DNA from: Weissella paramesenteroides ATCC 33313
GTDB taxonomy: Bacteria; Bacillota; Bacilli; Lactobacillales; Lactobacillaceae
NCBI RefSeq assembly: GCF_000160575.1
Contig: NZ_GG697129.1
Location: 188,960-230,571, forward strand
Reading direction: 5' to 3'
DNA length: 41,612 nt
Within the stretch, counting starts at the first letter, position 1, and every line of letters begins with the position of its first letter. The position numbers and the translations under genes were made by a program. Below the pieces are notes generated by a model. That model made no database searches. It saw nothing but the letters and a program-made list of their open reading frames with translations, and was not told where the DNA came from. Shown here in pieces: positions 1-38,847 of this stretch.

Positions 1-81
1 TATCACAATCCTTTGGAGTTTTTTTAAAATTATTAGTAAATAAAAACTTCAGTTCATTTATGCTTACATCATGAAATATTT

Positions 82-420
82 TTATCTAGATAATGTTTTT
101 TCTATTTCTTGCTTGTCTAGGTCACTAACATATTTTTCTGAGCTGAACAGAGCTTGTAATTCGTTTTTATACTGTAATCGCGCCCTTGCAGCTGCAAAAC
201 CATTGAGTTGTTGCACTCTTTGGTACTTCGTAACATTTTCAACTACTTTCTTATGAGTACGATTTTGTAAAATATTATCAATTTCATTCTGGATAATCAC
301 ATTATCAGTAGATTTCCGAATAAGTTTTAAATCAGTATCTGAAATCGTATTATCTTTTATTGCTTTACTCAACCCATATTCTTGTAATAACATAAATCGC
401 AACTTTTCGTCTAACGTCAT
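82..420 (-). CDS. Hypothetical protein, 112 aa
   Basis: I do not recognise this protein. The ATG at 420 is preferred because an AGGAG ribosome-binding sequence lies about 7 bases upstream. The reading frame stays open to 528, but that extension would run through a nested inverted repeat and encodes a low-complexity hydrophobic stretch, so it is probably leader. The predicted protein is highly charged and mostly helical, with no membrane segment or cysteine motif. Its middle is rich in Asn, Asp and Ile and its C-terminal half in Arg, Lys, Gln and Glu (for example GFAAARARLQYKNELQ). It stands alone, with its own leader, downstream of a small membrane protein gene and the dpt operon. Size and charge would suit a small regulator or plasmid/phage accessory protein, but nothing in the sequence proves this. 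Confidence 0.55.
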   Translation of the reverse strand: MTLDEKLRFMLLQEYGLSKAIKDNTISDTDLKLIRKSTDNVIIQNEIDNILQNRTHKKVVENVTKYQRVQQLNGFAAARARLQYKNELQALFSSEKYVSDLDKQEIEKTLSR

Positions 421-436
421 AAAACGCTCCTGTTTA

Positions 437-506
437 ACGTCACTTGGACTTAATTTTGACAAATTAAAAACCGTGCTCAAATATACGAACACGGTTAAAG
501 TGACGT
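437..506. repeat. Nested pair of inverted repeats in the leader of the 82-420 gene
   Basis: An outer perfect 9-bp inverted repeat (ACGTCACTT at 437-445, AAGTGACGT at 498-506) encloses an inner perfect 7-bp repeat (AACCGTG at 469-475, CACGGTT at 490-496). On the minus strand the inner hairpin is followed by TTTTTAA, so in RNA it could act as a weak terminator upstream of the 82-420 gene. Alternatively the repeats are operator sites. Both arms of both repeats are exact. Confidence 0.6.
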
Positions 507-705
507 ATATCCGTTTACAGTGAAGCACCTTACCATTGGGCAGGTTGCTACTAGGTCATTGTGTGTAACCACTCGCTAGTTCTTGATATAGCTCAGAATT
601 AAATTGTTATTTTCATTATATTAACGATTAGCTAATTTATCAAGAAAAAAGTAAAGTCCTTATGTTCGTTTATTGGAACTTTAAATATGGCTTTATATTC
701 CTTGA
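507..705. other. Intergenic DNA, no gene recognised
   Basis: No convincing reading frame was found here. The stretch 521-600 is noticeably more GC-rich than its surroundings and contains partly complementary segments (GGTT at 542-545 and AACC at 568-571). It could encode a small RNA or be a remnant of a replication or mobile element, but there is no recognisable family signature. Confidence 0.3.
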
Positions 706-774
706 TTAGTCATCTTTAGTATCATCATGAGAAATCATATCTGCAGATATGAAAGATTCAATATCATCTTTCAT
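706..774 (-). CDS. Possible 22-aa acidic peptide ORF
   Basis: A short frame from ATG 774 encodes an acidic peptide (MKDDIESFISADMISHDDTK...) ending at TAA 706. It lies just after the stop of the membrane protein gene 796-1053 and resembles that protein's own tail (DDDIKTYIAA against DDIESFISAD). No strong ribosome-binding site precedes it. It is more likely a duplicated or frame-broken remnant of the upstream C-terminus than a real gene. Confidence 0.2.
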   Translation of the reverse strand: MKDDIESFISADMISHDDTKDD

Positions 775-795
775 TCTTTCATCATGTGTTACTAT

Positions 796-1053
796 TTACG
801 CAGCTATGTATGTTTTAATATCATCATCGTTATCACTTGTATTGGACATATTTTCTTCCACAACCTTATGAGCTAATTTTATAAGAATATATCCCAAAAA
901 TAAACAGTGAAGAATATCATTCGCATGGTTAAAGGAAAAAGACCATGTAAAAACATCTTCAACTAATTCCCACAAACCAAGCCCTATTAATATATAACCA
1001 GTTATTAGAAATATGGGAAGAAAGTCATCTAAAAAATTGTATATTCCCTTCAT
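796..1053 (-). CDS. Small two-segment membrane protein, unknown function
   Basis: This 85-residue protein is not recognised. An AAGGAGA ribosome-binding sequence sits about 5 bases before ATG 1053, supporting the start. Two hydrophobic stretches are visible, roughly residues 11-35 (containing PIFLITGYILIGLGLW) and 47-62 (containing LHCLFLGYILIKLA), joined by a short loop. An acidic, Asn/Asp-rich tail of about 18 residues is probably cytoplasmic. The gene is between the dpt operon (same strand, 530 bases upstream) and the 82-420 gene. Small membrane proteins often accompany defence islands, but no functional link can be shown from the sequence. Confidence 0.6.
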   Translation of the reverse strand: MKGIYNFLDDFLPIFLITGYILIGLGLWELVEDVFTWSFSFNHANDILHCLFLGYILIKLAHKVVEENMSNTSDNDDDIKTYIAA

Positions 1054-1452
1054 ATGGTCTCCTTATTTGATTATATGTAATTACTTAATTTCCCGCGTTA
1101 TAATGTTATAATCGATTAAATTATAACTCCCTTCTTCCTAAATTACACACATTACTGCTTTACTAGTCTGTCACCAATAACGCTTCAAATAATTTTTTTG
1201 AACTGAATTAAAAAAATTTGAATAAAATTTAGTCAATGAATAGGTCATAAAAATTTCCGAAATTTACTTATTGCTTTAATAAGAAATATAGTTATTGATG
1301 ATAGATCTCAACTTGCCATGTCTTTTATAGTCATCATAAAATGTCATAAGGGCATGCGGATAATTTTCATCAAAAATATTAAACTTGGTTTTTCTTAATT
1401 ACATTTTATTCTTAGCTTTGGTTATAAATTAATATTGATGTAAAGATGAAAC
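1054..1452. other. AT-rich intergenic DNA with promoter-like boxes
   Basis: No gene is seen. The 8-bp inverted repeat GTTATAAT (1097-1104) / ATTATAAC (1120-1127) provides several TATAAT-like hexamers on both strands, about 50-70 bases before the membrane protein gene. They could be its promoter, although no good -35 box could be paired with them. The rest (1128-1452) is featureless AT-rich sequence. Confidence 0.35.
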
Positions 1453-1504
1453 GTAAAAAGCCCATGTGTATGACATAAAAATCAAACTCATAGGCTACTT
1501 TTAC
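1453..1504 (-). terminator. Probable terminator of the dpt operon
   Basis: Imperfect inverted repeat: GTAAAAAGCCCATG (1453-1466) pairs with CATAGGCTACTTTTAC (1489-1504) apart from a small bulge and one mismatch. Read on the minus strand the stem ends in GGGCTTTTTAC, giving a short U-run. It lies about 80 bases after the dptH stop. The stem is long but imperfect, so efficiency is uncertain. Confidence 0.45.
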
Positions 1505-1585
1505 TCAGAATATATTTATTTATCTGTTTTACTATTGTTCACTTTATTTTATACAAAAACATTTAATAAATATATCTAATTAATC

Positions 1586-4500
1586 TTAATCGGATCTATC
1601 TTCAAATGAAGTAATACTAATTGGTTGAAACTGTATATTTGATAACTTCCCATTTTCTAATAAATTCGGTCCAACATCAATTGCCTCACCCTTTTTTAAT
1701 CCTTTAAGAAGCGATTCAACTTCAGCACGTTGCTTATCATCAGATGTTAAGCTTCTGGCTAAGTTGTGTACTTGAACCTCAGGAGGTAGAAAATGGATTG
1801 ACTCTGCTGGGTTATATATTGCTTTTTGCCCATCACCCTTAATTGAATCAATCTGTTGTGTAGCAAAAATTCCTGACCATCCAAATTTACGTCCCTCTTG
1901 TAGTATTTTAACAGTAGGTGCATTTGATCCGAAATTTAAGTTTTGCACTTCATCTAGTACAATTGGAATTGGCCTATTCTTAGCATTTTCTCCTCTACTT
2001 TGGGAATAACCCCACAAATCCCACAGCATAAATTCAATAAGAATTTTTTGTATATTGGGCTGAAATCCTTTTAGTTGAAAAATGTGTATAGTACCTGTGT
2101 TTGATAGCATACTATCCCAGCTAAATTGGTCTTTATATGAAAAAGGATCACGATCTAGCAAAGATGATATTCGACCAATAAGTTTATCATGTGGTGTATC
2201 ATCGTCTACCAATCTTCCCTTTAATTTAGTAAATGTCAATCTGTCCCCAAAAGTTTGATAGCCTTCTTTAAGAGCCACAGCTAACTCATTTTTTTGTTGT
2301 GGACCCAAATTAAATACAAAATCAATTACCTGTGTAACCCTATCAACCATATCTTGAGTGTCTTCTGGAAACTTCAAACCACCTCCAAAATCAATTTCTC
2401 TTAGTTTAAATGGATTTATTGGTAATTTTTCTTTAAAAATAATTTTTTGATCAATCTTACTGCCAAGTGATTTCAATAACATTGGTTCCAATTGATTTGG
2501 TAAAAATCCATCAGTATAATCTACAACGATAGCATCAATATTTTTTACTGATAAACTATGCAATAATGTCTGTATAAAATATGTCTTTCCTTGTCCAGAT
2601 TTACCAGTTATTAATAAATGTCTGTTGGCCAATTCTCGATGGCCATATTCCCAATAAAATTGTTGGTTTGTAGTTGTTCCCTTCCCAAGTAAAAGACGAA
2701 CATTTTCAAAATTATTCTTGTGTTGAACTTCATTATTATCAAAATATTGTTCATTTATTGAAATCGAATCTGATACAGATGGCACAGATTCAATACTCTT
2801 TTCTATTTTATGAATATCATTTGTTTTTTTAGGAATTCTATTAAACATGTTTGATAATAATTTAGATTTTGGAAAATCAAATTTATCTGTCTGTATCCAG
2901 TCAGTTAATTGTCCAATATTTCCATCAACAAAATGATAAGCATCTTCCTCTGGAACTTTTATCAAGGTTATATCTCTGCTATCATCAATCATAATACTTC
3001 GATTTGTTATATGACTAGTAAATTCAAATATAAATCCTTTGTGATAAAATTTTTGTATATCAAATGACACAGTATATTGTCCCATAGATAACTCATCTAA
3101 TATTTTATCCATAGAATTCCTGAAAACTGTAGGTATAGCAATCAGTTCACTACCAATAAGCTTTTGCATATTAGTTACTAAAATCGACTTAAAGAAATTT
3201 CTATAGAACATCCGTGAAAAGTAATCATCATTTTGATCTGATAAATATTCTTCAAGAATTTTAGCAGTGTGCTTTAATTGACCGATAGCTTTATCTGTAA
3301 CTTTATTATCATTATTACCAACTTTGACCTCTACCGGTACAAAGTGTAACTTCAATTCTCCATCAAATTTATCAATTCCAATAAACAATAAATCATCACT
3401 AGTAACACCTTTTTGAGACAGATTTTTAGAACTAAACATTCCTTCGGATTGTTTTAATCCAACCATCGTTGAAACACGTAAAATTTCTTCTAACGATATT
3501 GGAATCCAAAGAATATCCGGTGCATACAAAATTCCCATTGTTTCCTTAAACGCAGAAATTAAACTTAATTTTTCCCTAATTACTGTTGTATTATGTGATT
3601 TCCAACCTTCAGACGCCAACCTTAGTAGCCATTCTCCATTCAAAACATTAAATGACTTAATAATATTTTCTGTATCAACATCATTTATATCAGCCACATT
3701 CTTAATCAACTTATTTTCTAACACAGTTTTATACTGTTCAATATTAGCGGTTACCGTAATAGCTTCGTACTGTGAATTTGTATTTTGATCCATATAATGA
3801 ATAACAAAAAAATTATTTTCTTCACTAGAAGAGAAAAAATAATTCAAATCTACATCTGGATTTAAAATTGTTACCCAATCACTATTATTCAAAAATTGCG
3901 GAATTGTATTATGATCTAATCTACGAACATTATTCGTTAACATTTTATTTTTCAGATAATCATTTATATCATCATTTGCTGCTAGTATAAAACTATTCCA
4001 TTGGATTGCAAAATCAATCAATTCATTATTACCAGCATTACCACTTTCACCAACACCAAAACCACTTGTAAAAAAATCATCACTATCAGCTGTAAATTGT
4101 AACGAGTTAACCAGACCATCAAGTGCATAATTTTTAGGAAGACTCATTATTGATTTTTGTGCTGAATTATTAGATTGCGTAAATTGATAAAATGTTACAT
4201 GATAATATACATCTGAATTAATTTCAGTATAAATATTAATTTCTTCATGCAACATATTTAAAATTTCATAATCCTCAAATTCAATATTAGAATTTTTTCT
4301 ATATTCATTAACCAGCAAGTCATTTAAATGATCTAAACTAGTCACCTCATAAAACTGTTTAAATAATGAATTAATTGTAATACCAATATCTTTAAAATAT
4401 ATGTTTACTCCCGTCATTTTAGTAATATCAGAATTAGGAGTAATTTTATTTAGCATAAAATGAATGATAGCATCAAATAGATTTCGTTCATCCACAATAT

Positions 4501-6829
4501 TAATAACAGCGACGTTCAAAGACAATTGATCATTTATACCAAACAAAAACTCATATTGCTGTTCATAATTTAGTAATCTCTGTTGTATAACTTTAGAAGT
4601 CATATCTGTCAGCATTCGTTTCTTTTGTTCTTGATAATTTAACCATCCTGGTCTTTCTGAAGAATAGTGTGCCTGTAGCAGGTGCCCATCACGTTTAATA
4701 TACGGTACCAAATTTTCGGCATTGAGATGTTTCAACATAAATTTTGAAGGAACTTGTGATTTTTCGAGTGTTTTTGCAAGCTGAACTTGATATTGCAATA
4801 ACATAGGGTTTAATGGTGAAACATCAATCTGACCATTCTCTAATTCAACAATCCCAATATTTCTAATGTTTTTCAATTCAATATCAGAAATTTTTTGTTC
4901 ATCAACTAAACTATGGAATGCCTTTTTAATTGTTTCCAAAACTTCGTTCACTATTAAAATATATTCATCACTTAAAATAGCTAAACTTGGTAAAGTTTTT
5001 TGATTTTGGTAATATTCAAATAATCTATTATATGCATTTTCAACCTCTTTGGGTATATGTAACTCAATTGCATCATATTTATCAACGTCTAACTTACCAT
5101 AAACTGACTTCTTTAAAATCATCTCTTGTTCAAGATTAAGATAAGTCTGGTAAGTATTCATAACGTTTCTGATTACACTACCAAATAAAATTTTCCCATC
5201 ACTATAAATCAATTCTTCTTCAGAATTTAATCGCTCATATTCAATATCAATTGGTTTGGCTGGAACGGGTTTGTCCATTCCTCGGAAAATTATTGGAAGT
5301 TTATCATTACCAATTCTAACAGGAATAATTGGATCAACATCATCTTCCAGTACCAAATTATCTAAATTCAGAATACAATTTTCGAGATTTCTATTTTCTA
5401 AATCAGCTAATTGGGTTACATCTAATATCTCATTACTATAGTATCCCAATTGTTTCTCAGGATTATCTGTAGATATTCCCAGTCCATATTGACTTTTTTC
5501 CCCATTATGCTGTTTAAAAACTAATATTTCAAAATCAGGCTTGAGTTTTTTTATTTTGTTTAATTCAAAGGGCAGAATCATAAATTTAAGTTTAAAAGTT
5601 AATGATGGAATATTCTTATGACGATATGTTATGAGTCCTCCATATGTTTTAGTGTCATCAAAATGGTTTAAAAAAATTCTAATTTTTTTACCTGAAGTTT
5701 CAACCTTAAAATCATCGGTCGTTATCCTTTTTTCACCTAAACCACTAAAGACATACGTATTTGTTTCAACTATTCCGGATTTTTGGACATTATTATCAAA
5801 ATAAAAATCAAAAGCAAACGTATGACTAGATATTTGACTCTGAGGACGACCTACTGAAGAAAATAATATATTCATCTTGCGTCGTTGTGTTGCAGATTCT
5901 CCACTTTTTCTAATCCATTTATCTGTTATATCGTTTGCAAAGTTGTCATAATCCAATTCTAATTTGACTTTTTTATTTTTTTCAAATGCATCAGAAGCAC
6001 TTAATACTTCTTTGAAAGGGACATTTCTCCATTCATCAGCTGTAGATAATGTATTTATTAAAGAATTATCAGCAATTAGAAAATTTCCTAAACGGTCAGG
6101 TGTATCAATCGCCTCCTGCGCTTTAGAAATCTTACTAAATAATTCTTTATTTTGGTTAATTCGTGTCTTTATGATATCGGAATTATCTGTATTATAACTA
6201 AATGAACCTAATTGAGAATCTTCAAACAAGTGCATGTCAGAATACTGATTTGAACTTATCTTAACATCTTCTATGATAGAAAAAATAGTGTCAAAATCTT
6301 TCAAGGCCGTTGTATTAACACCTTGATCCATATTCTTCAAAAAATCTTTTATTATTTGCTTTTCAAAAATTTGTAAATTTGACTTTTGTACTTCCTTGTT
6401 AATATCTTTTTTTATTTCGTTAATATCAAAAGGACCATTTTTCTGTCCAACATCATAAGCTCCTCCAAGAATTGAATCTAAAGGATCTGTAACAATGAAA
6501 AATATAGCTGTATTTTTAAATTCCCCTAATTGTGCACTAATACGGTTACGTAAAGTGACCAAAAAATCATTAGTCACCTCAGATGAAGCACTAATAATTA
6601 ATAGCTTTACATCTTCAATTTTAAGTGCATGCGTAGAGAATTTTAGTGTAGGAGAATTAAATTCAAAACCATCACTTATTTCATCCGGCTTGAACGCATT
6701 ATATAAATTATCCACTTCAACTTGATCATCAAGTAGTGTAAAAAAACGATCACCTGATTGTATATTATTATTAGATTTAACCCATTTATTAAATCTTGTT
6801 ATTAAAAAATTATAGTATTGATTTAACAT
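1586..6829 (-). CDS. dptH: DNA phosphorothioation-dependent restriction protein DptH (DndH)
   Basis: This very large protein (1747 aa) matches the size and architecture of DptH/DndH, the largest subunit of the DndFGH restriction complex that damages DNA lacking phosphorothioate marks. The C-terminal ~350 residues form a HerA/FtsK-like ATPase: Walker A GKSGQGKT at residues 1409-1416, then a hydrophobic Walker B strand IPIVLDEVQN and the downstream GIFATQQ sensor-like segment. Before it, around residues 1155-1170, is GID...VPVEVKVG, with E1167-V-K1169 resembling a PD-(D/E)xK nuclease core. The first ~1100 residues have no motif I recognise. ATG 6829 is preferred (GGGG about 8 bases upstream); GTG 6844 and ATG 6838 are in frame. 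The start lies inside the end of dptG, which indicates translational coupling. Composition is strongly AT-rich. Assignment rests on architecture and operon, not alignment. Confidence 0.85.
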   Translation of the reverse strand: MLNQYYNFLITRFNKWVKSNNNIQSGDRFFTLLDDQVEVDNLYNAFKPDEISDGFEFNSPTLKFSTHALKIEDVKLLIISASSEVTNDFLVTLRNRISAQLGEFKNTAIFFIVTDPLDSILGGAYDVGQKNGPFDINEIKKDINKEVQKSNLQIFEKQIIKDFLKNMDQGVNTTALKDFDTIFSIIEDVKISSNQYSDMHLFEDSQLGSFSYNTDNSDIIKTRINQNKELFSKISKAQEAIDTPDRLGNFLIADNSLINTLSTADEWRNVPFKEVLSASDAFEKNKKVKLELDYDNFANDITDKWIRKSGESATQRRKMNILFSSVGRPQSQISSHTFAFDFYFDNNVQKSGIVETNTYVFSGLGEKRITTDDFKVETSGKKIRIFLNHFDDTKTYGGLITYRHKNIPSLTFKLKFMILPFELNKIKKLKPDFEILVFKQHNGEKSQYGLGISTDNPEKQLGYYSNEILDVTQLADLENRNLENCILNLDNLVLEDDVDPIIPVRIGNDKLPIIFRGMDKPVPAKPIDIEYERLNSEEELIYSDGKILFGSVIRNVMNTYQTYLNLEQEMILKKSVYGKLDVDKYDAIELHIPKEVENAYNRLFEYYQNQKTLPSLAILSDEYILIVNEVLETIKKAFHSLVDEQKISDIELKNIRNIGIVELENGQIDVSPLNPMLLQYQVQLAKTLEKSQVPSKFMLKHLNAENLVPYIKRDGHLLQAHYSSERPGWLNYQEQKKRMLTDMTSKVIQQRLLNYEQQYEFLFGINDQLSLNVAVINIVDERNLFDAIIHFMLNKITPNSDITKMTGVNIYFKDIGITINSLFKQFYEVTSLDHLNDLLVNEYRKNSNIEFEDYEILNMLHEEINIYTEINSDVYYHVTFYQFTQSNNSAQKSIMSLPKNYALDGLVNSLQFTADSDDFFTSGFGVGESGNAGNNELIDFAIQWNSFILAANDDINDYLKNKMLTNNVRRLDHNTIPQFLNNSDWVTILNPDVDLNYFFSSSEENNFFVIHYMDQNTNSQYEAITVTANIEQYKTVLENKLIKNVADINDVDTENIIKSFNVLNGEWLLRLASEGWKSHNTTVIREKLSLISAFKETMGILYAPDILWIPISLEEILRVSTMVGLKQSEGMFSSKNLSQKGVTSDDLLFIGIDKFDGELKLHFVPVEVKVGNNDNKVTDKAIGQLKHTAKILEEYLSDQNDDYFSRMFYRNFFKSILVTNMQKLIGSELIAIPTVFRNSMDKILDELSMGQYTVSFDIQKFYHKGFIFEFTSHITNRSIMIDDSRDITLIKVPEEDAYHFVDGNIGQLTDWIQTDKFDFPKSKLLSNMFNRIPKKTNDIHKIEKSIESVPSVSDSISINEQYFDNNEVQHKNNFENVRLLLGKGTTTNQQFYWEYGHRELANRHLLITGKSGQGKTYFIQTLLHSLSVKNIDAIVVDYTDGFLPNQLEPMLLKSLGSKIDQKIIFKEKLPINPFKLREIDFGGGLKFPEDTQDMVDRVTQVIDFVFNLGPQQKNELAVALKEGYQTFGDRLTFTKLKGRLVDDDTPHDKLIGRISSLLDRDPFSYKDQFSWDSMLSNTGTIHIFQLKGFQPNIQKILIEFMLWDLWGYSQSRGENAKNRPIPIVLDEVQNLNFGSNAPTVKILQEGRKFGWSGIFATQQIDSIKGDGQKAIYNPAESIHFLPPEVQVHNLARSLTSDDKQRAEVESLLKGLKKGEAIDVGPNLLENGKLSNIQFQPISITSFEDRSD

Positions 6830-8201
6830 ACTGTGCATCCCCACTATCGCTCATCTTTTCCAATAGATTTACTTCTTCATAAAATTTAACAATTTCATTT
6901 TTACTAGTTTTATCAAAAAATAAGCCATGATGTTCAAATCCTTCAAAAACACGTCTAAGTAACAAATGTTCATTATTACCTACTACAATTGCTGTAAATA
7001 ATAAAATGATTTCTTGTGATGCATTTAATACGTTTCCCAAACTCCCTCTGGATTTTAAATAGTTCAACTGTTTTATTTCATCATATGACTTACGATATCT
7101 TTTTTGAGTTTCAAGCGATTCATCCATCTTTAACCACTCTTTTAATTCATTAATTTCTTTAACCAATTCATTTTGAATATCAGTTTCAACGGAAATGTTG
7201 TTTTTTATATAATCATGGCTAATTGTTTGCGAATATATGCCTTTAAAACTTTGTAAATTTTGTAACAAAGTAAGCAATTCTTTGCTATCCAATGATAGCA
7301 ATTCAGCAAGCTTTTTTTCACTTGAGTAGGTTTCGGGATTATTAATAATAAAATTTCCCGATAAAACATTCAAGTAATGCATAATATCAATATCAACCAA
7401 AATATCTGCTGATAATTCTTTTACTTCATGATAGCCATCAGTTACCGCATATCTCGAACGCGATACTTGTTCTTTTTCGTACGCAAAGTAGTAACGCTTA
7501 TTATTTTCATTTCTATCTAAAATAGAACTTCCTGTATATACAATATAAATTAAGTAATAGAAACTAAATAGCTTATTAATATTTAAAGATATAAAATCAA
7601 AATTTCCGCTCTCCATGAGTATATGAAAATCCTCAGTAAATAATGATTTATAATAATTTGCATTTATTAGTGTAAATTTTTCTTTATTTGTATCTTGAAT
7701 TTCTAAAGCCGGCAAAGAATCTTTCAATACTTGCGAGTATAAGTTATTCGCATTTTGACCAGATAGGTAATTTAACCAATCTTTGTTATTCTCTAAGTCT
7801 AGTAATTGGACAAGTAGATTAGCAACTTGAATTTTCCCTTTTTTATCTTTAGAATCCGAAATAGATATATAGGGTATTAATTGTGATCGCTTTGTATTTT
7901 TAAATGCAGTTTGAAAAATCTCAAGTAGCTGATTATCGCTTATATTATCAGGAACCTCTACTGTTTTACGTAAGTTTTCAATAAATTTTTGATTTAAATC
8001 TGATAATTCAGGCTTATTCCCTTTAGATATTCTCGCAATAATACCTGTAACCTCTAAAAATTCCTCTTCGAATTTATATCTTTCTGGTTCTCGTGTAAAA
8101 AAAGGTAATAAAGTATATCCAAATTTATGCATATATTTTATATATTGTTTTTCCGGATTTAGTTTCAAAAAATCAATTAAGTCTTTAACTGCGCTATTCA
8201 T
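6810..8201 (-). CDS. dptG: DNA phosphorothioation-dependent restriction protein DptG (DndG)
   Basis: The 463-residue product occupies the middle position of the dptFGH operon and has the size expected for DptG, a required partner of DptF and DptH without an assigned activity. No ATP-binding or catalytic motif is visible. The protein is mainly helical and charged. A probable coiled-coil lies near residues 330-375 (containing NELVKEINELKEWLK). A hydrophobic patch near residues 210-225 (SFYYLIYIVYTGSS) is too polar to be a clear membrane span. The ATG at 8201 follows the dptF stop by 8 bases, and its ribosome-binding sequence (AGGAG) lies in the last codons of dptF at longer than usual spacing. 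The 3' end overlaps the dptH start. Identification depends largely on its two neighbours. Confidence 0.8.
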   Translation of the reverse strand: MNSAVKDLIDFLKLNPEKQYIKYMHKFGYTLLPFFTREPERYKFEEEFLEVTGIIARISKGNKPELSDLNQKFIENLRKTVEVPDNISDNQLLEIFQTAFKNTKRSQLIPYISISDSKDKKGKIQVANLLVQLLDLENNKDWLNYLSGQNANNLYSQVLKDSLPALEIQDTNKEKFTLINANYYKSLFTEDFHILMESGNFDFISLNINKLFSFYYLIYIVYTGSSILDRNENNKRYYFAYEKEQVSRSRYAVTDGYHEVKELSADILVDIDIMHYLNVLSGNFIINNPETYSSEKKLAELLSLDSKELLTLLQNLQSFKGIYSQTISHDYIKNNISVETDIQNELVKEINELKEWLKMDESLETQKRYRKSYDEIKQLNYLKSRGSLGNVLNASQEIILLFTAIVVGNNEHLLLRRVFEGFEHHGLFFDKTSKNEIVKFYEEVNLLEKMSDSGDAQYVKSIL

Positions 8202-8209
8202 AGTTAGTA

Positions 8210-10147
8210 CTATTCTCCTAATTCACGTAAAATAATCTTATCGTACACTTTTTTTAATTCATATTCCTTATTTAAATTAGGGTTATATAATATGTTAGTT
8301 CGTTCACCTTTTGTTGATCTAGTAATCGAATTAACAAATTCTTCGAACTTCACTACCATTTGGATATCCTCTCTTTTTAAGATATACCCTTTAACAACTT
8401 TTCTAAGTAAAGCATATGTTTTATAGTCAATTTCAATTTGTTGTATCTCGTTTTTTGCAGTGGCATTTTGATTTTCAACAGTTACAACAACACTAAAATT
8501 TTTAACTTCCCATGAAATAGGCTCTAATTCTAATTCAACTGCAATTGCAGTTGAATTTTTTGCTCGCATCGTGACAACATATCTCTCTTTAGAAATTCTC
8601 CCATTCCATAGATTTACACTTTCATTAATTAACTTAAATAAATCCAGACTACTTCCCGTATTATTTACATCCTGTAATATTTCTATAAAGTCTTGAAATT
8701 CAGGATTATTTAATACAGAATTTTGTGCATTAATTAAAAATTTTACTCTGAACATTGTATTCACTAACAATTTAAAATATTTTAAATTGTCTTCCTTATT
8801 TCGAAATTTATCAAACATAGGTTCAAATCTTTTATAATCATCTCTAAAGGTTTCTTTAATAAAATTAAATACATCGTTTGAATGAAACAATTTCACGCTC
8901 AGTTTATCAACTTCTCTGTTTTGATTATTAGTCGGATCCATAAGACTAATAGTTTTTAGTAAAGCTGATGTTTCAGAATTATCAAAAACTAAGAATGGCA
9001 AGTACGAATCATAGTTAATCTTTTCTTTATTAGAAATTAAAATATCATATATAAAATTCATTAGTGTGCGAGCTGAAATTATTTCTTTATATTCAATTTG
9101 AGCTCTAATTAAAAGATAAATAATGCTGTTCTTTATATTAGAATCTAGTAGTAATTTATAATTAGCATGAAAAGCTTGCGTATGGTGATTTTTTTTATCT
9201 TGTAAATATGCTTGATAGAACGGGTTTTCCTCTTTCATTGAGAATACTTTATCAAACATTGCCAAAAAAAATTGAGATTCTACTTTATTATCATTAACTT
9301 CAAACATCTCTTGATTAAAAAATGAAACATTACTAAAAACTGGATGCGTATATGGTTGAACTTCACCATTGCTTATTCCTGATTTTTTTAAATAATTAAC
9401 CAACTCATTAAAGTTATCATTCTGCTCGAGTTTATATAATAAATTAGTAATAACCCCTAAATTTATTGCAATAATCAAACGTTTTTGTCCACGTTGAATA
9501 TTGTGATCATTATACATCTCTAATTTGTTAATAAGTGTTTCAATAGCAGTATGATTGGGACTATCACTTTCAGTTGCATCATTAATTAACTCTATTTGTC
9601 GATCATTAAACTCATTCGCATACTTTTCTTTCATATATGCCAACAAATGTGACTTACCATCTCCAACATTTCCAACTAGAAAAACTATCCCTTTTGTTTT
9701 TTCTAATAGTTTCTGGATTTGGAGTTCTAATTCAGCTTGAATTGGTCTTTCGACATGCATATATTTTTTTAACTCACTAAAATACTCAGAATCTACTACT
9801 GCTTCTTTTGACCGCATAGATAATGTTTCCAACAAAGGGCCTAGTGCTGTTTTCTCTACATCTCCTGCAGCATTTCCATTCTCAATATCTAAAATTAAGG
9901 AGGCTAACTTTCTTCGCTTTTCCTCAATTTTCTCTTTTGATAGTTCTACTTCTTCATGTTCTAAAATATATGTGACCCCAACAATTTCATCAAAAATAAA
10001 ATCTGTAATTTTTTTATTTTTTCTCAGGCTCCAAGCAGCATCCCACAGATTATCGGCTGAAAACTGAACTGTTTTAAATTTTTTTGGTCCAACAATTGCT
10101 TCATATAACCTTGATGCTTGTCTTTCATATTCTGAATAATTACACAT
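8210..10147 (-). CDS. dptF: DNA phosphorothioation-dependent restriction protein DptF (DndF), P-loop ATPase
   Basis: First gene of the dpt operon, 645 aa, with a strong GAGGAGAG ribosome-binding site before ATG 10147. From about residue 108 it resembles DptF: a SKEAVV segment, then KYMHVERPI, then Walker A GNVGDGKS at residues 159-166 followed by HLLAYMKEKY. A hydrophobic strand RLIIAINLG (about 214-222) may carry later P-loop features. In the characterised system DndF is an ATPase that acts with DndG and DndH in restriction of unmodified DNA. The N-terminal ~105 residues (containing FSADNLWDAAWSLRKNKKI) precede the usual DptF-like start and may be an added domain. A promoter with 17-bp spacing lies just upstream. 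No dndBCDE modification gene lies beside it. Confidence 0.85.
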   Translation of the reverse strand: MCNYSEYERQASRLYEAIVGPKKFKTVQFSADNLWDAAWSLRKNKKITDFIFDEIVGVTYILEHEEVELSKEKIEEKRRKLASLILDIENGNAAGDVEKTALGPLLETLSMRSKEAVVDSEYFSELKKYMHVERPIQAELELQIQKLLEKTKGIVFLVGNVGDGKSHLLAYMKEKYANEFNDRQIELINDATESDSPNHTAIETLINKLEMYNDHNIQRGQKRLIIAINLGVITNLLYKLEQNDNFNELVNYLKKSGISNGEVQPYTHPVFSNVSFFNQEMFEVNDNKVESQFFLAMFDKVFSMKEENPFYQAYLQDKKNHHTQAFHANYKLLLDSNIKNSIIYLLIRAQIEYKEIISARTLMNFIYDILISNKEKINYDSYLPFLVFDNSETSALLKTISLMDPTNNQNREVDKLSVKLFHSNDVFNFIKETFRDDYKRFEPMFDKFRNKEDNLKYFKLLVNTMFRVKFLINAQNSVLNNPEFQDFIEILQDVNNTGSSLDLFKLINESVNLWNGRISKERYVVTMRAKNSTAIAVELELEPISWEVKNFSVVVTVENQNATAKNEIQQIEIDYKTYALLRKVVKGYILKREDIQMVVKFEEFVNSITRSTKGERTNILYNPNLNKEYELKKVYDKIILRELGE

Positions 10148-10179
10148 AAACTCTCCTCAACAATAAATTATTAATTAAC

Positions 10180-10208
10180 ATTATGATACTAATGTTTTTT
10201 CCCCTCAA
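10180..10208 (-). promoter_or_regulatory. Predicted promoter of the dptFGH operon
   Basis: On the minus strand, TTGAGG (10208-10203) and CATAAT (10185-10180) are separated by exactly 17 bases. Transcription would begin near 10173, giving a leader of about 25 bases to dptF. Both boxes are one or two changes from consensus, consistent with moderate expression. No operator-like palindrome overlaps it. Confidence 0.5.
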
Positions 10209-10470
10209 TGATTTTTTAATTTAGTTTATTTTTTATAACTCCCCACTCAAATAAAAAGGCATTAACACATCAAGTCTTGGTGAATTAAAATGTTGAAATT
10301 CCCAATACCAATATAATTACCTAAAAATAAAGTAATATTGTTAAATACTTTTTTGTTTTACGAACTATCTCTCCTTTTTTTATATTACGTAAATCATACT
10401 ATTATAATAATATCAAAAATTAGTATAGTAAAATATAGCTAATTACTGAATTAACTTTAAAATCAACCAA
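10209..10470. other. AT-rich spacer between the dpt operon and the ribosomal operon
   Basis: About 260 bases with no gene, direct repeat or integrase-type attachment site that I can recognise. It is as AT-rich as the dpt genes, so the composition change to normal chromosomal sequence occurs at the rpsI terminator (about 10474). The junction of the accessory region is most likely here. Confidence 0.35.
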
Positions 10471-10473
10471 AAA

Positions 10474-10504
10474 ACTCCCAAGTCGGCAAAACCAACTTGG
10501 GAGT
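10474..10504 (-). terminator. Intrinsic terminator of rplM-rpsI
   Basis: A perfect 10-bp stem (ACTCCCAAGT at 10474-10483 and ACTTGGGAGT at 10495-10504) with an 11-base loop is followed on the minus strand by TTTTTTGG. It lies about 50 bases after the rpsI stop and ends the ribosomal operon before the accessory region. Confidence 0.9.
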
Positions 10505-10554
10505 CATTTTTGTATTCGGATCTTTGACAATCCAACAAAGTGTAATAGTAAATA

Positions 10555-10947
10555 TTAACGCTTTGAGAATTGTGAAGCCTTACGAGCTTTCTTAAGACCT
10601 GGCTTCTTACGTTCCTTCTTACGAGGGTCACGAGTAAGTAGACCAGCCTTCTTCAATGAAGCGCGGAAGTCAGGATCAACAGTCAATAGGGCACGGGCGA
10701 TACCGTGACGGATTGCACCAGCTTGACCTGAGAAACCACCACCATCAACGTTAACCAAAACATCGTAGTTTCCTAGAGTTTCAGTAACGTTAAATGGTTG
10801 CACCATAACCTCACGCAAGTTAGCGAAAGGAATGTATTGTTCTGCTGAACGACCATTGATCGTGATAGCACCGTTACCAGGTACCAAACGTACACGGGCA
10901 ACAGAGTTCTTACGACGGCCAGTTCCAGAGTATTGTACTTGAGCCAT
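10555..10947 (-). CDS. rpsI: 30S ribosomal protein S9
   Basis: The 130-residue product is full length for bacterial S9 (uS9). It begins with the conserved [16 protein letters not shown] segment and ends with the basic tail [12 protein letters not shown], whose last Arg reaches the P-site tRNA in the ribosome. The Gly-rich [19 protein letters not shown] segment in the middle is typical of the family. It is the second gene of the rplM-rpsI operon, starting 25 bases after rplM, with its own AGGAG site, and is followed by a strong terminator. Expression is likely coordinated with rplM through the L13 leader upstream. Confidence 0.98.
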
Positions 10948-22439: not shown

Positions 22440-22573
22440 ATTTTGATTCTTACCAAAAGACCCCCAGTACATACTGCACCGGGGGTCAAAAGTCGCTTTC
22501 GCGTTTTTTCACTTCCTCGGCGGGATATTGAGTCTTGCGACACCTGCGTCTTAGGTAGAATCGATTTATTACT
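22440..22573 (-). ncRNA. Ribosomal protein L10 leader RNA with attenuator hairpin
   Basis: The transcript from the promoter at 22580-22608 carries a leader of about 155 bases before rplJ. It contains the element ACCTAAGACGCAGGTGTC (around 22557-22540), resembling the L10-binding motif of Firmicutes L10 leaders. A GC-rich hairpin follows, GACCCCCGGTGC / GTACTGGGGGTC (22487-22459, 12 bp with G-U pairs), ending in TTTTGG. Binding of L10 probably shifts the balance toward this terminator. Identified by eye from position and motifs. Confidence 0.75.
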
Positions 22574-35779: not shown

Positions 35780-35801
35780 GTTATCTCCTTATTGATGACA
35801 C

Positions 35802-35837
35802 AAAAAAAGCCTTACGAATCCAGTGATTCCTAAGGCT
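35802..35837 (-). terminator. pyr operon attenuator terminator
   Basis: Minus-strand stem AGCCTTAGGAATC / GATTCGTAAGGCT (13 bp with one internal G-G mismatch) and ACTG loop, followed by seven U. It lies between the promoter and pyrB. Its loop and 5' side contain TCACTGGA, exactly complementary to TCCAGTGA in the upstream PyrR-binding element, giving an alternative antiterminator. Confidence 0.92.
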
Positions 35838-35899
35838 TGCTCATTCAATCGTTGATGCAGTTATCCCATGCTAGGTTCCCCACTCATCAATTAACGTCA

Positions 35900-35931
35900 C
35901 CTTTATTAGCCTCACTGGACTACAATTAAAA
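35900..35931 (-). promoter_or_regulatory. PyrR-binding RNA element
   Basis: The minus-strand leader contains AGTCCAGTGAGGCT (35921-35908) followed by AATAAAGGTGAC. This fits the conserved PyrR-binding loop (AGUCCnGUGAGGCU...AAGG) of Firmicutes pyr leaders. PyrR with UMP would stabilise this anti-antiterminator and favour termination. pyrR itself is not in the window. Confidence 0.85.
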
Positions 35932-35950
35932 GGTATTTATGATTGGGTTT

Positions 35951-38603: not shown

Positions 38604-38847
38604 AACGTCCCGCAATCATCTCTGATTACGGGACGTTACCACGTGTTACCACCCGAGTTTGATAAGACAAGCTTACCCTCTAAACGTTATAACGAGCGAC
38701 CCCGAATGGCACTAGCAATCATGTTCGTGTCATTATGACTCCAAGACCATCTTCTAGCGAAATCGTTACTAGTTTCCACCACCCACTAGCTCTCTACAAA
38801 CGATCAAACACTATACTCATCTCTTCTATGTCGATACGCCTATGCTA
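38604..38847 (-). ncRNA. T-box riboswitch upstream of luxS
   Basis: The minus-strand leader of about 240 bases has the T-box motif TCGGGTGGTAACACG (38656-38642). It also has a distal stem I with AGAGAG...GGTGGTGGAAACTAG (about 38797-38769). The terminator is a perfect-looking 15-bp stem (38604-38618 with 38623-38637, one G-U pair) followed by TTTTTG. The candidate specifier loop GAAGATGGTC contains ATG (38750-38748), pointing to methionine, which suits luxS because it regenerates homocysteine. Uncharged tRNA would favour read-through. The specifier was assigned by eye; GAT or GAA is possible. Confidence 0.88.

Follow-up and report, generated by a model that had tools for sequence, protein, structure and literature searches.

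A solitary DptFGH operon in Weissella paramesenteroides appears to belong to an old lineage without phosphorothioate modification genes

The DptFGH (DndFGH) proteins have been described as a strict subset of phosphorothioate (PT) genomes (PMC3226654), and solitary systems could not be counted in an earlier survey, which asked for dndFGH no more than 30 open reading frames (ORFs) away from dndCD or dndBCDE (PMC8569181). More recently, DndFGH was recorded in 1798 taxa, against only 316 with the full set of eight Dnd genes, and standalone DndFGH was proposed (PMC10853773; Rakesh, Aravind and Krishnan 2024). Here, we describe a dptFGH operon in Weissella paramesenteroides ATCC 33313, within a stretch of 41,612 nucleotides (hereafter the window; contig NZ_GG697129.1, positions 188,960 to 230,571), that belongs to the standalone kind already proposed in 2024. 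With a probability of about 0.7, it encodes a functional solitary complex against invaders that works without PT. There is good evidence that the operon falls within an old lineage of solitary loci, in which the solitary state would be both old and stable, because the DptH tree needs few state changes and the predicted nuclease residues are kept.

The operon occupies positions 1586-10147 of the window on the minus strand and consists of three coupled, full-length ORFs behind rpsI, in the order F-G-H expected for the DptFGH/DndFGH families. The first gene, dptF (8210..10147, minus strand), encodes a P-loop NTPase subunit of 645 aa; dptG (6810..8201, minus strand) encodes a predicted DNA-binding subunit of 463 aa; and dptH (1586..6844, minus strand) encodes a protein of 1752 aa, predicted to be a nuclease and HerA/FtsK translocase. 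F and G are separated by 8 bp, while G and H overlap by 35 bp. DptF and DptG score well above the NCBIfam cut-offs (TIGR03238, 220.8 bits with a cut-off of 50; TIGR03236, 142.8 bits with a cut-off of 20), and PADLOC profiles match all three subunits (DndF, 5.1e-111; DndG, 5e-54; DndH, 1.9e-301). Together with the gene order, these matches bear out the identities proposed in a first-pass annotation of the bare sequence. No other family fits the three proteins better in the NCBIfam and PADLOC searches, so the different family placement which that annotation had named as telling against it did not occur, yet DptH lies under the NCBI equivalog cut-off: it scores 492.3 bits (E 3e-147) with TIGR03237, below 620.65, and falls outside what NCBI defines as PT-dependent DptH. 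The same cut-off was missed by all four other solitary DptH proteins tested (476-540 bits) and exceeded by the sole coupled one tested (1304 bits).

A PT-based DndABCDE-FGH system would have at least DndC in the genome. The W. paramesenteroides genome (1.98 Mb, a draft of 13 contigs, 99.95% complete) has no match genome-wide to the DndC profile and none to PAPS_reduct PF01507, a domain carried by DndC and also by SspD. The DndD profile aligns only over positions 1-109, to a frame of 1187 aa with a score of 21 bits, a match that we read as SMC-like. Reading by eye through the ORFs of the 20 kb on the left side of the window showed mainly metabolic and transport genes and no dnd gene. In all, no known PT-making enzyme was found genome-wide, although no individual search was made for DndB, DndE or the Ssp proteins. 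The locus therefore has FGH without a modification module, with the caveat of an assembly gap considered below. The first-pass annotation had reported no linked dndBCDE, and this stands; dndBCDE just left of position 1, which it had given as a finding that would overturn its view, was not seen. Its suggestion that dndBCDE might sit elsewhere in the genome is rejected on the DndC, PF01507 and DndD results and the content of the left 20 kb.

The comparison with relatives used 80 named loci, the best 80 of 131 in a scan of genome contigs with a DptH alignment (L and G numbers below are our labels for loci and genomes). The loci were found by two HerA-domain peptide patterns, which biases the sample towards that HerA type. 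In gene maps, the loci are of two kinds, with or without dnd modification genes next to FGH; a locus was called coupled when the fetched stretch, 25 kb at most, held a DndC-like ORF that scored over 200 bits against the protein from Priestia or Aliivibrio, and one (L071) was set to coupled by hand. DndC over the cut-off was absent from 41 of the 44 locally uncoupled genomes (which include L060, L106, L107, L109, L112, L120, L128 and L129) and present in L060, L107 and L120. The same search detected DndC in three of the four comparison genomes (L057, L071 and L103), with only 27.7 bits in L094.

On a FastTree phylogeny with 81 DptH rows, 3 state changes are enough to account for the 39 solitary and 35 coupled rows, against a mean of about 27 after shuffling, and the same number is needed on a mixture-model tree built from 40 rows. 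The solitary rows form three FastTree groups: 16 rows from Lactobacillales and Staphylococcus, including the window; 8 rows from Exiguobacterium and kin; and 15 rows from Bacillaceae and Methanobrevibacter. None of the 200 bootstrap trees of the 40-row set groups all solitary rows together, and the window's group is not separated there from a long-branched outgroup, with no other coupled row within it. With the root of the tree unplaced, these changes may reflect gain as well as loss of PT coupling. Five loci with no full DptH (L106, L107, L109, L112 and L120) are outside the tree, and seven are in it but outside the solitary and coupled counts: L094, L095 and L108 (weak DndC-like neighbour), L060 (DndC elsewhere), L128, L129 and L049. 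A plasmid row (L045) was called solitary from its 29 kb only, and it is near-identical to L081 and L082. With so few changes on either tree, a recent loss of the modification half is rejected. The first-pass annotation had presented the locus as a lone oddity; its observation is real and correctly read, but less strange than it looked, because the solitary state is common to the surrounding DptH relatives, and decoupling had been published in 2024 (PMC10853773). A conserved linked partner is likewise rejected: when neighbours within 5 kb were clustered, no family was common to most solitary loci.

Characteristic residues are kept in DptF and DptH. DndF is described as having a P-loop with Asn in Walker B, and DndH as a restriction endonuclease (REase) with HerA/FtsK (PMC10853773). 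In agreement with that description of DndF, the DptF Walker A (G159-H167, GNVGDGKSH), D190 and N229 are conserved in solitary and coupled rows. By sequence, the nearest solved structures are 7exx for DptG and 7es4 for the DptH C-terminus, and none was found for DptF. The AlphaFold2 model of DptG (predicted local distance difference test, pLDDT, 87) matches DndG 7exx in Foldseek with E 5e-12 and TM 0.63/0.66, and a triple winged helix-turn-helix reading of DndG is available from PMC10853773. In DptH, D1150, D1151, E1172, K1174 (E-x-K 1172-1174) and Q1189 are followed by a Pfam DUF87/HerA domain at 1404-1607 and by HerA/FtsK Walker A/B residues K1420, D1631 and E1632; on our reading, the order of the first five resembles a PD-(D/E)XK nuclease. 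These five, which lie outside the search patterns used to find the loci, are kept in 39/39 solitary and 35/35 coupled rows. The same holds for K1420, D1631 and E1632, while S1149 and Q1634 each vary in one solitary row and T1421 in three. Retention of the nuclease residues across a deep solitary group, over such distances and without PT, would argue for a PT-independent function. The residues that distinguish solitary from coupled rows are scattered and confounded with phylogeny, and no PT-sensing site is claimed.

In one detail, DptF varies among relatives. A Zn-ribbon-like CxxC...CxxC motif occurs at the DptF N-terminus of five Lactobacillaceae loci (L054, L082, L085, L114 and L022/L023); it is present in 5 of 72 other DptF rows and not in the window DptF.

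In the functional, PT-free complex favoured here, DptF would bind nucleotide and DptG would bind DNA, while DptH, as a fusion of a PD-(D/E)XK-type nuclease with a HerA/FtsK translocase, would travel on DNA and nick it. The operon would be expressed and active, and would act on incoming phage or mobile DNA. Self DNA would be spared since firing would need an infection cue rather than the absence of a PT mark; candidate cues may include a free DNA end, translocating or packaging DNA, or a phage nucleotide or protein. Behind this reading stand the gene identities, the full-length frames, the catalytic residues, the lack of any PT enzyme found, the genomic island described below and the deep stability of the solitary state, as well as other defence genes at the same rpsI site in relatives. 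The idea in the first-pass annotation that the complex recognises another signal is thereby supported as a possibility.

Several points weigh against such a function. Salmonella FGH without dndBCDE triggers SOS (PMC8569181, PMC10853773), and data on coupled DndFGH are said to support exclusive sensing of PT tags, with a caveat by the authors themselves (PMC10470545). The premise of self-attack is drawn from Salmonella, however, and need not hold for the window's lineage. The nuclease fold is assigned from motif and alignment, as a model of DptH 660-1345 (pLDDT 83) has no significant PDB match; a test of this stretch for a target recognition domain, inactive methyltransferase or REase module gave a methyltransferase as top match, at a non-significant E of 0.04. 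The conservation of the HerA residues is partly built in, since the loci were found by HerA-domain patterns that include Walker A. The completeness of the 44 uncoupled genomes is not stated, and several are metagenome-assembled genomes. In the window's own genome, the search covered DndC, DndD and PF01507 only, so an unrecognised PT enzyme would escape it, and a 273-N gap of uncertain true length (C12:188687-188959), not seen in the first-pass annotation, lies directly left of position 1.

These last two points feed the alternative that dndBCDE exists and was missed, through an assembly gap, a lost plasmid or an unrecognised PT-forming enzyme, as the draft state of the 13 contigs would allow. 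The same 22-mer flanks the gap on either side, which suggests a scaffolding artefact, and with a 99.95% complete genome, no match to DndC or PAPS-reductase and no DndC in any of the nine other DptF-positive genomes of the family sample, we regard this as very unlikely. It is unlikely, too, that the operon is silent, conditionally expressed or inactivated, as the remnant of a PT restriction-modification (RM) system that lost its modification half. The solitary locus and its foreign-looking island, with a GC content of 28.8%, would suit such a history. Against it, however, the three frames are full length with the key catalytic residues kept, which disfavours the option of an inactive complex raised in the first-pass annotation, and the solitary state is common to all 16 rows of the FastTree group, so any loss is old. 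Decay looks different in G012 and G050: these two relatives no longer have DptG, the E-x-K or the HerA Walker A.

Another DNA mark might instead protect self, with a methyltransferase replacing PT in solitary lineages. The recurrent candidate is a Sau3AI-like C5 methyltransferase, presumably GATC-specific. C5 methyltransferases (PF00145) occur in 22 of 39 solitary versus 7 of 33 coupled-set genomes (Fisher p 0.004, with L060 counted in the coupled set and L125 left out). Sau3AI-like ones, taken as those scoring over 300 bits to the Periweissella enzyme of L055, occur in at least 15/39 versus 0/33 (Fisher p near 2e-5); not every C5 methyltransferase place was fetched, and the counts depend on one seed and a threshold chosen after seeing the scores (next lower, about 104). 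A Sau3AI-like REase lies near the methyltransferase or FGH in at least 13/39 solitary genomes, versus PF02976 in 31/398 class genomes, a comparison that sets blastp matches at fetched places against a profile count; the one REase tested has two MutH-domain stretches. Of 36 loci, 7 have the Sau3AI-like methyltransferase within 5 kb of FGH and 4 have another methyltransferase candidate there (C5 types in L066 and L093, an N4/N6-like motif in L089 and L100), the latter count resting partly on regular expressions. Genes for a Sau3AI-like REase, a C5 methyltransferase or both adjoin solitary FGH at L031:9297-12171, L056:15618-18310, L067:3234-6041, L074:4866-16928, L083:3002-6088, L088:15829-18523 and L110:16700-18307; L074 has them as R-F-G-H-M, all on one strand.

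This enrichment is a lead only, because relatedness makes the genomes non-independent and the state changes only about 3 times. As a lead it may be new; no link between Sau3AI and dndFGH was found in the passages searched. Clustering in defence islands is an alternative explanation for it, and GATC adenine methylation did not impair coupled DndFGH (PMC10470545). Moreover, the Sau3AI-like type is absent from 12 of the 15 searched genomes of the window's tree group. The window's own genome has no match to PF00145 or PF02976 (N4/N6 methyltransferases were not searched), so the Sau3AI-like type cannot explain the window, and C5 methylation is rejected as its self mark. Protection of self by another mark in solitary lineages seems quite unlikely. 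A combined history is possible but doubtful: within an ancient PT-free solitary branch, the window's lineage would be markless and fire on infection cues, while sister lineages would have teamed up with a Sau3AI-like C5 mark. If true, DptFGH would be a general translocase-nuclease engine carrying different discrimination modules (PT, m5C or none).

The genomic setting of the favoured solitary complex is that of a variable site. The rpsI gene (10555..10947, minus strand), upstream neighbour of dptF, is the conserved border of this site and was matched in 28/28 genomes of the genus. In blastn to the close relative G236, homology stops at about 10466, at a distance of 89 bp from rpsI, and starts again near C12:188646, beyond two small ORFs. 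The island absent from G236 (1..10465, strand not assigned) therefore consists of FGH and these two ORFs and extends past the left edge of the window by about 0.3 kb, the 273-N gap included. It is low in GC, with FGH at 28.8% versus 37-41% around it, and no direct repeat over 10 bp was found in the two boundary stretches searched. The first-pass annotation had described rpsI upstream and two unrelated small genes downstream, and this is confirmed: the 85-aa ORF (796..1053, minus strand) has no family match in Pfam, NCBIfam or PADLOC, and the 148-aa ORF (82..528, minus strand) has none over curated cut-offs, its PADLOC DrmC match being weak (14.5 bits, E 0.007). A tblastn search of the loci fetched by that stage matched both only to themselves. 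An intrinsic terminator-like hairpin (10473..10505, minus strand; 15-pair stem and T run) lies between rpsI and dptF, and was identified from a consensus scan only, which found 4 versus 3.2 expected in shuffles.

Genes after rpsI vary among the 20 sites fetched (L199-L218), some groups sharing them, and FGH is at none of the 20. Profile annotation, which covers five of these genomes, found a Schlafen-type helicase and HNH in G236, a KAP NTPase in G252, a C5 methyltransferase with NgoFVII-like and GmrSD proteins in G329, a STAND-like NTPase in G055 and an integrase in G161. We read the site downstream of rpsI as a defence hotspot, into which FGH was probably acquired horizontally. Elsewhere in the window, a T-box leader (38626-38837), an L10 leader (22446-22573) and a PyrR binding site (35800-35937) are ordinary features.

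DptF over the cut-off was found in 10/397 genomes of the family, Lactobacillaceae (14 at E 0.001), with no match in other genomes of the window's genus, and in 3/398 genomes of the phylum sample, own genome included. DndC over the cut-off was found in 0/397 family genomes, with two weak matches at E 0.001, both in other genomes. Among the 10 DptF-positive family genomes, G012 and G050 have no DptG, G108 and G165 are cut by contig ends, and PF01507 occurs in two: as a 270-aa frame in G108, which we take to be CysH-like, and as a marginal match of 22.5 bits in G282. Neither of these two has a DndC match at E 0.001. A scan of viral contigs with a single DptH found no relative.

Two variant architectures were also observed. 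A two-gene DptF-DptH relative without DptG occurs in one genus (L033:12334-19485 and L035:579-7598, in G012 and G050), where DptF retains its Walker A and DptH lacks the nuclease E-x-K and HerA Walker A; it is seemingly a catalytically dead descendant, and the neighbours, alike by eye, may indicate vertical inheritance. In L100, from an uncultured Methanobrevibacter, three tandem DptG-like genes lie between DptF and DptH.

NCBI names DptF and DptG 'DNA phosphorothioation-dependent', though the window genome, all nine other DptF-positive family genomes and 41/44 locally uncoupled genomes have no DndC over the cut-off. What makes DptFGH cut in the absence of a PT mark becomes a testable question in a small Gram-positive genome that has full-length FGH but no known PT enzyme. 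Compared with known systems, the window operon shares with the standalone DndFGH of PMC10853773 the F-G-H genes, the P-loop with Asn in Walker B, an H protein with REase and HerA/FtsK, and the lack of DndABCDE. The main text of that paper does not mention 'Lactobac', 'Staphylococcus', 'Sau3AI' or 'MutH', and the sections consulted report no experiment on a solitary system.

The PT-coupled DndABCDE-FGH of Priestia megaterium plasmid pBMG4 (NZ_CP048887.1), also from Bacillota, has the same F-G-H order and catalytic residues, and its DptH is 29% identical to that of the window. However, it also has dndB-E and an aminotransferase V (DndA-like) gene, running divergently from FGH, its DptH scores 1304 bits to TIGR03237 versus 492 for the window's, and it falls in a separate tree group. 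Levilactobacillus brevis plasmid pBRV563 (NZ_CP113120.1) belongs to the same solitary group as the window, and none of the genes annotated over its fetched 29 kb is a dnd gene. It differs in being plasmid-borne, with a DptH 34% identical and a DptF of 812 aa (annotated span) versus 645 aa. The Periweissella ghanensis locus (L055, the same as G138/L031) falls in the same four-row group as the window (99/98 support), with a DptH 40% identical, but is flanked by a Sau3AI-like REase and C5 methyltransferase.

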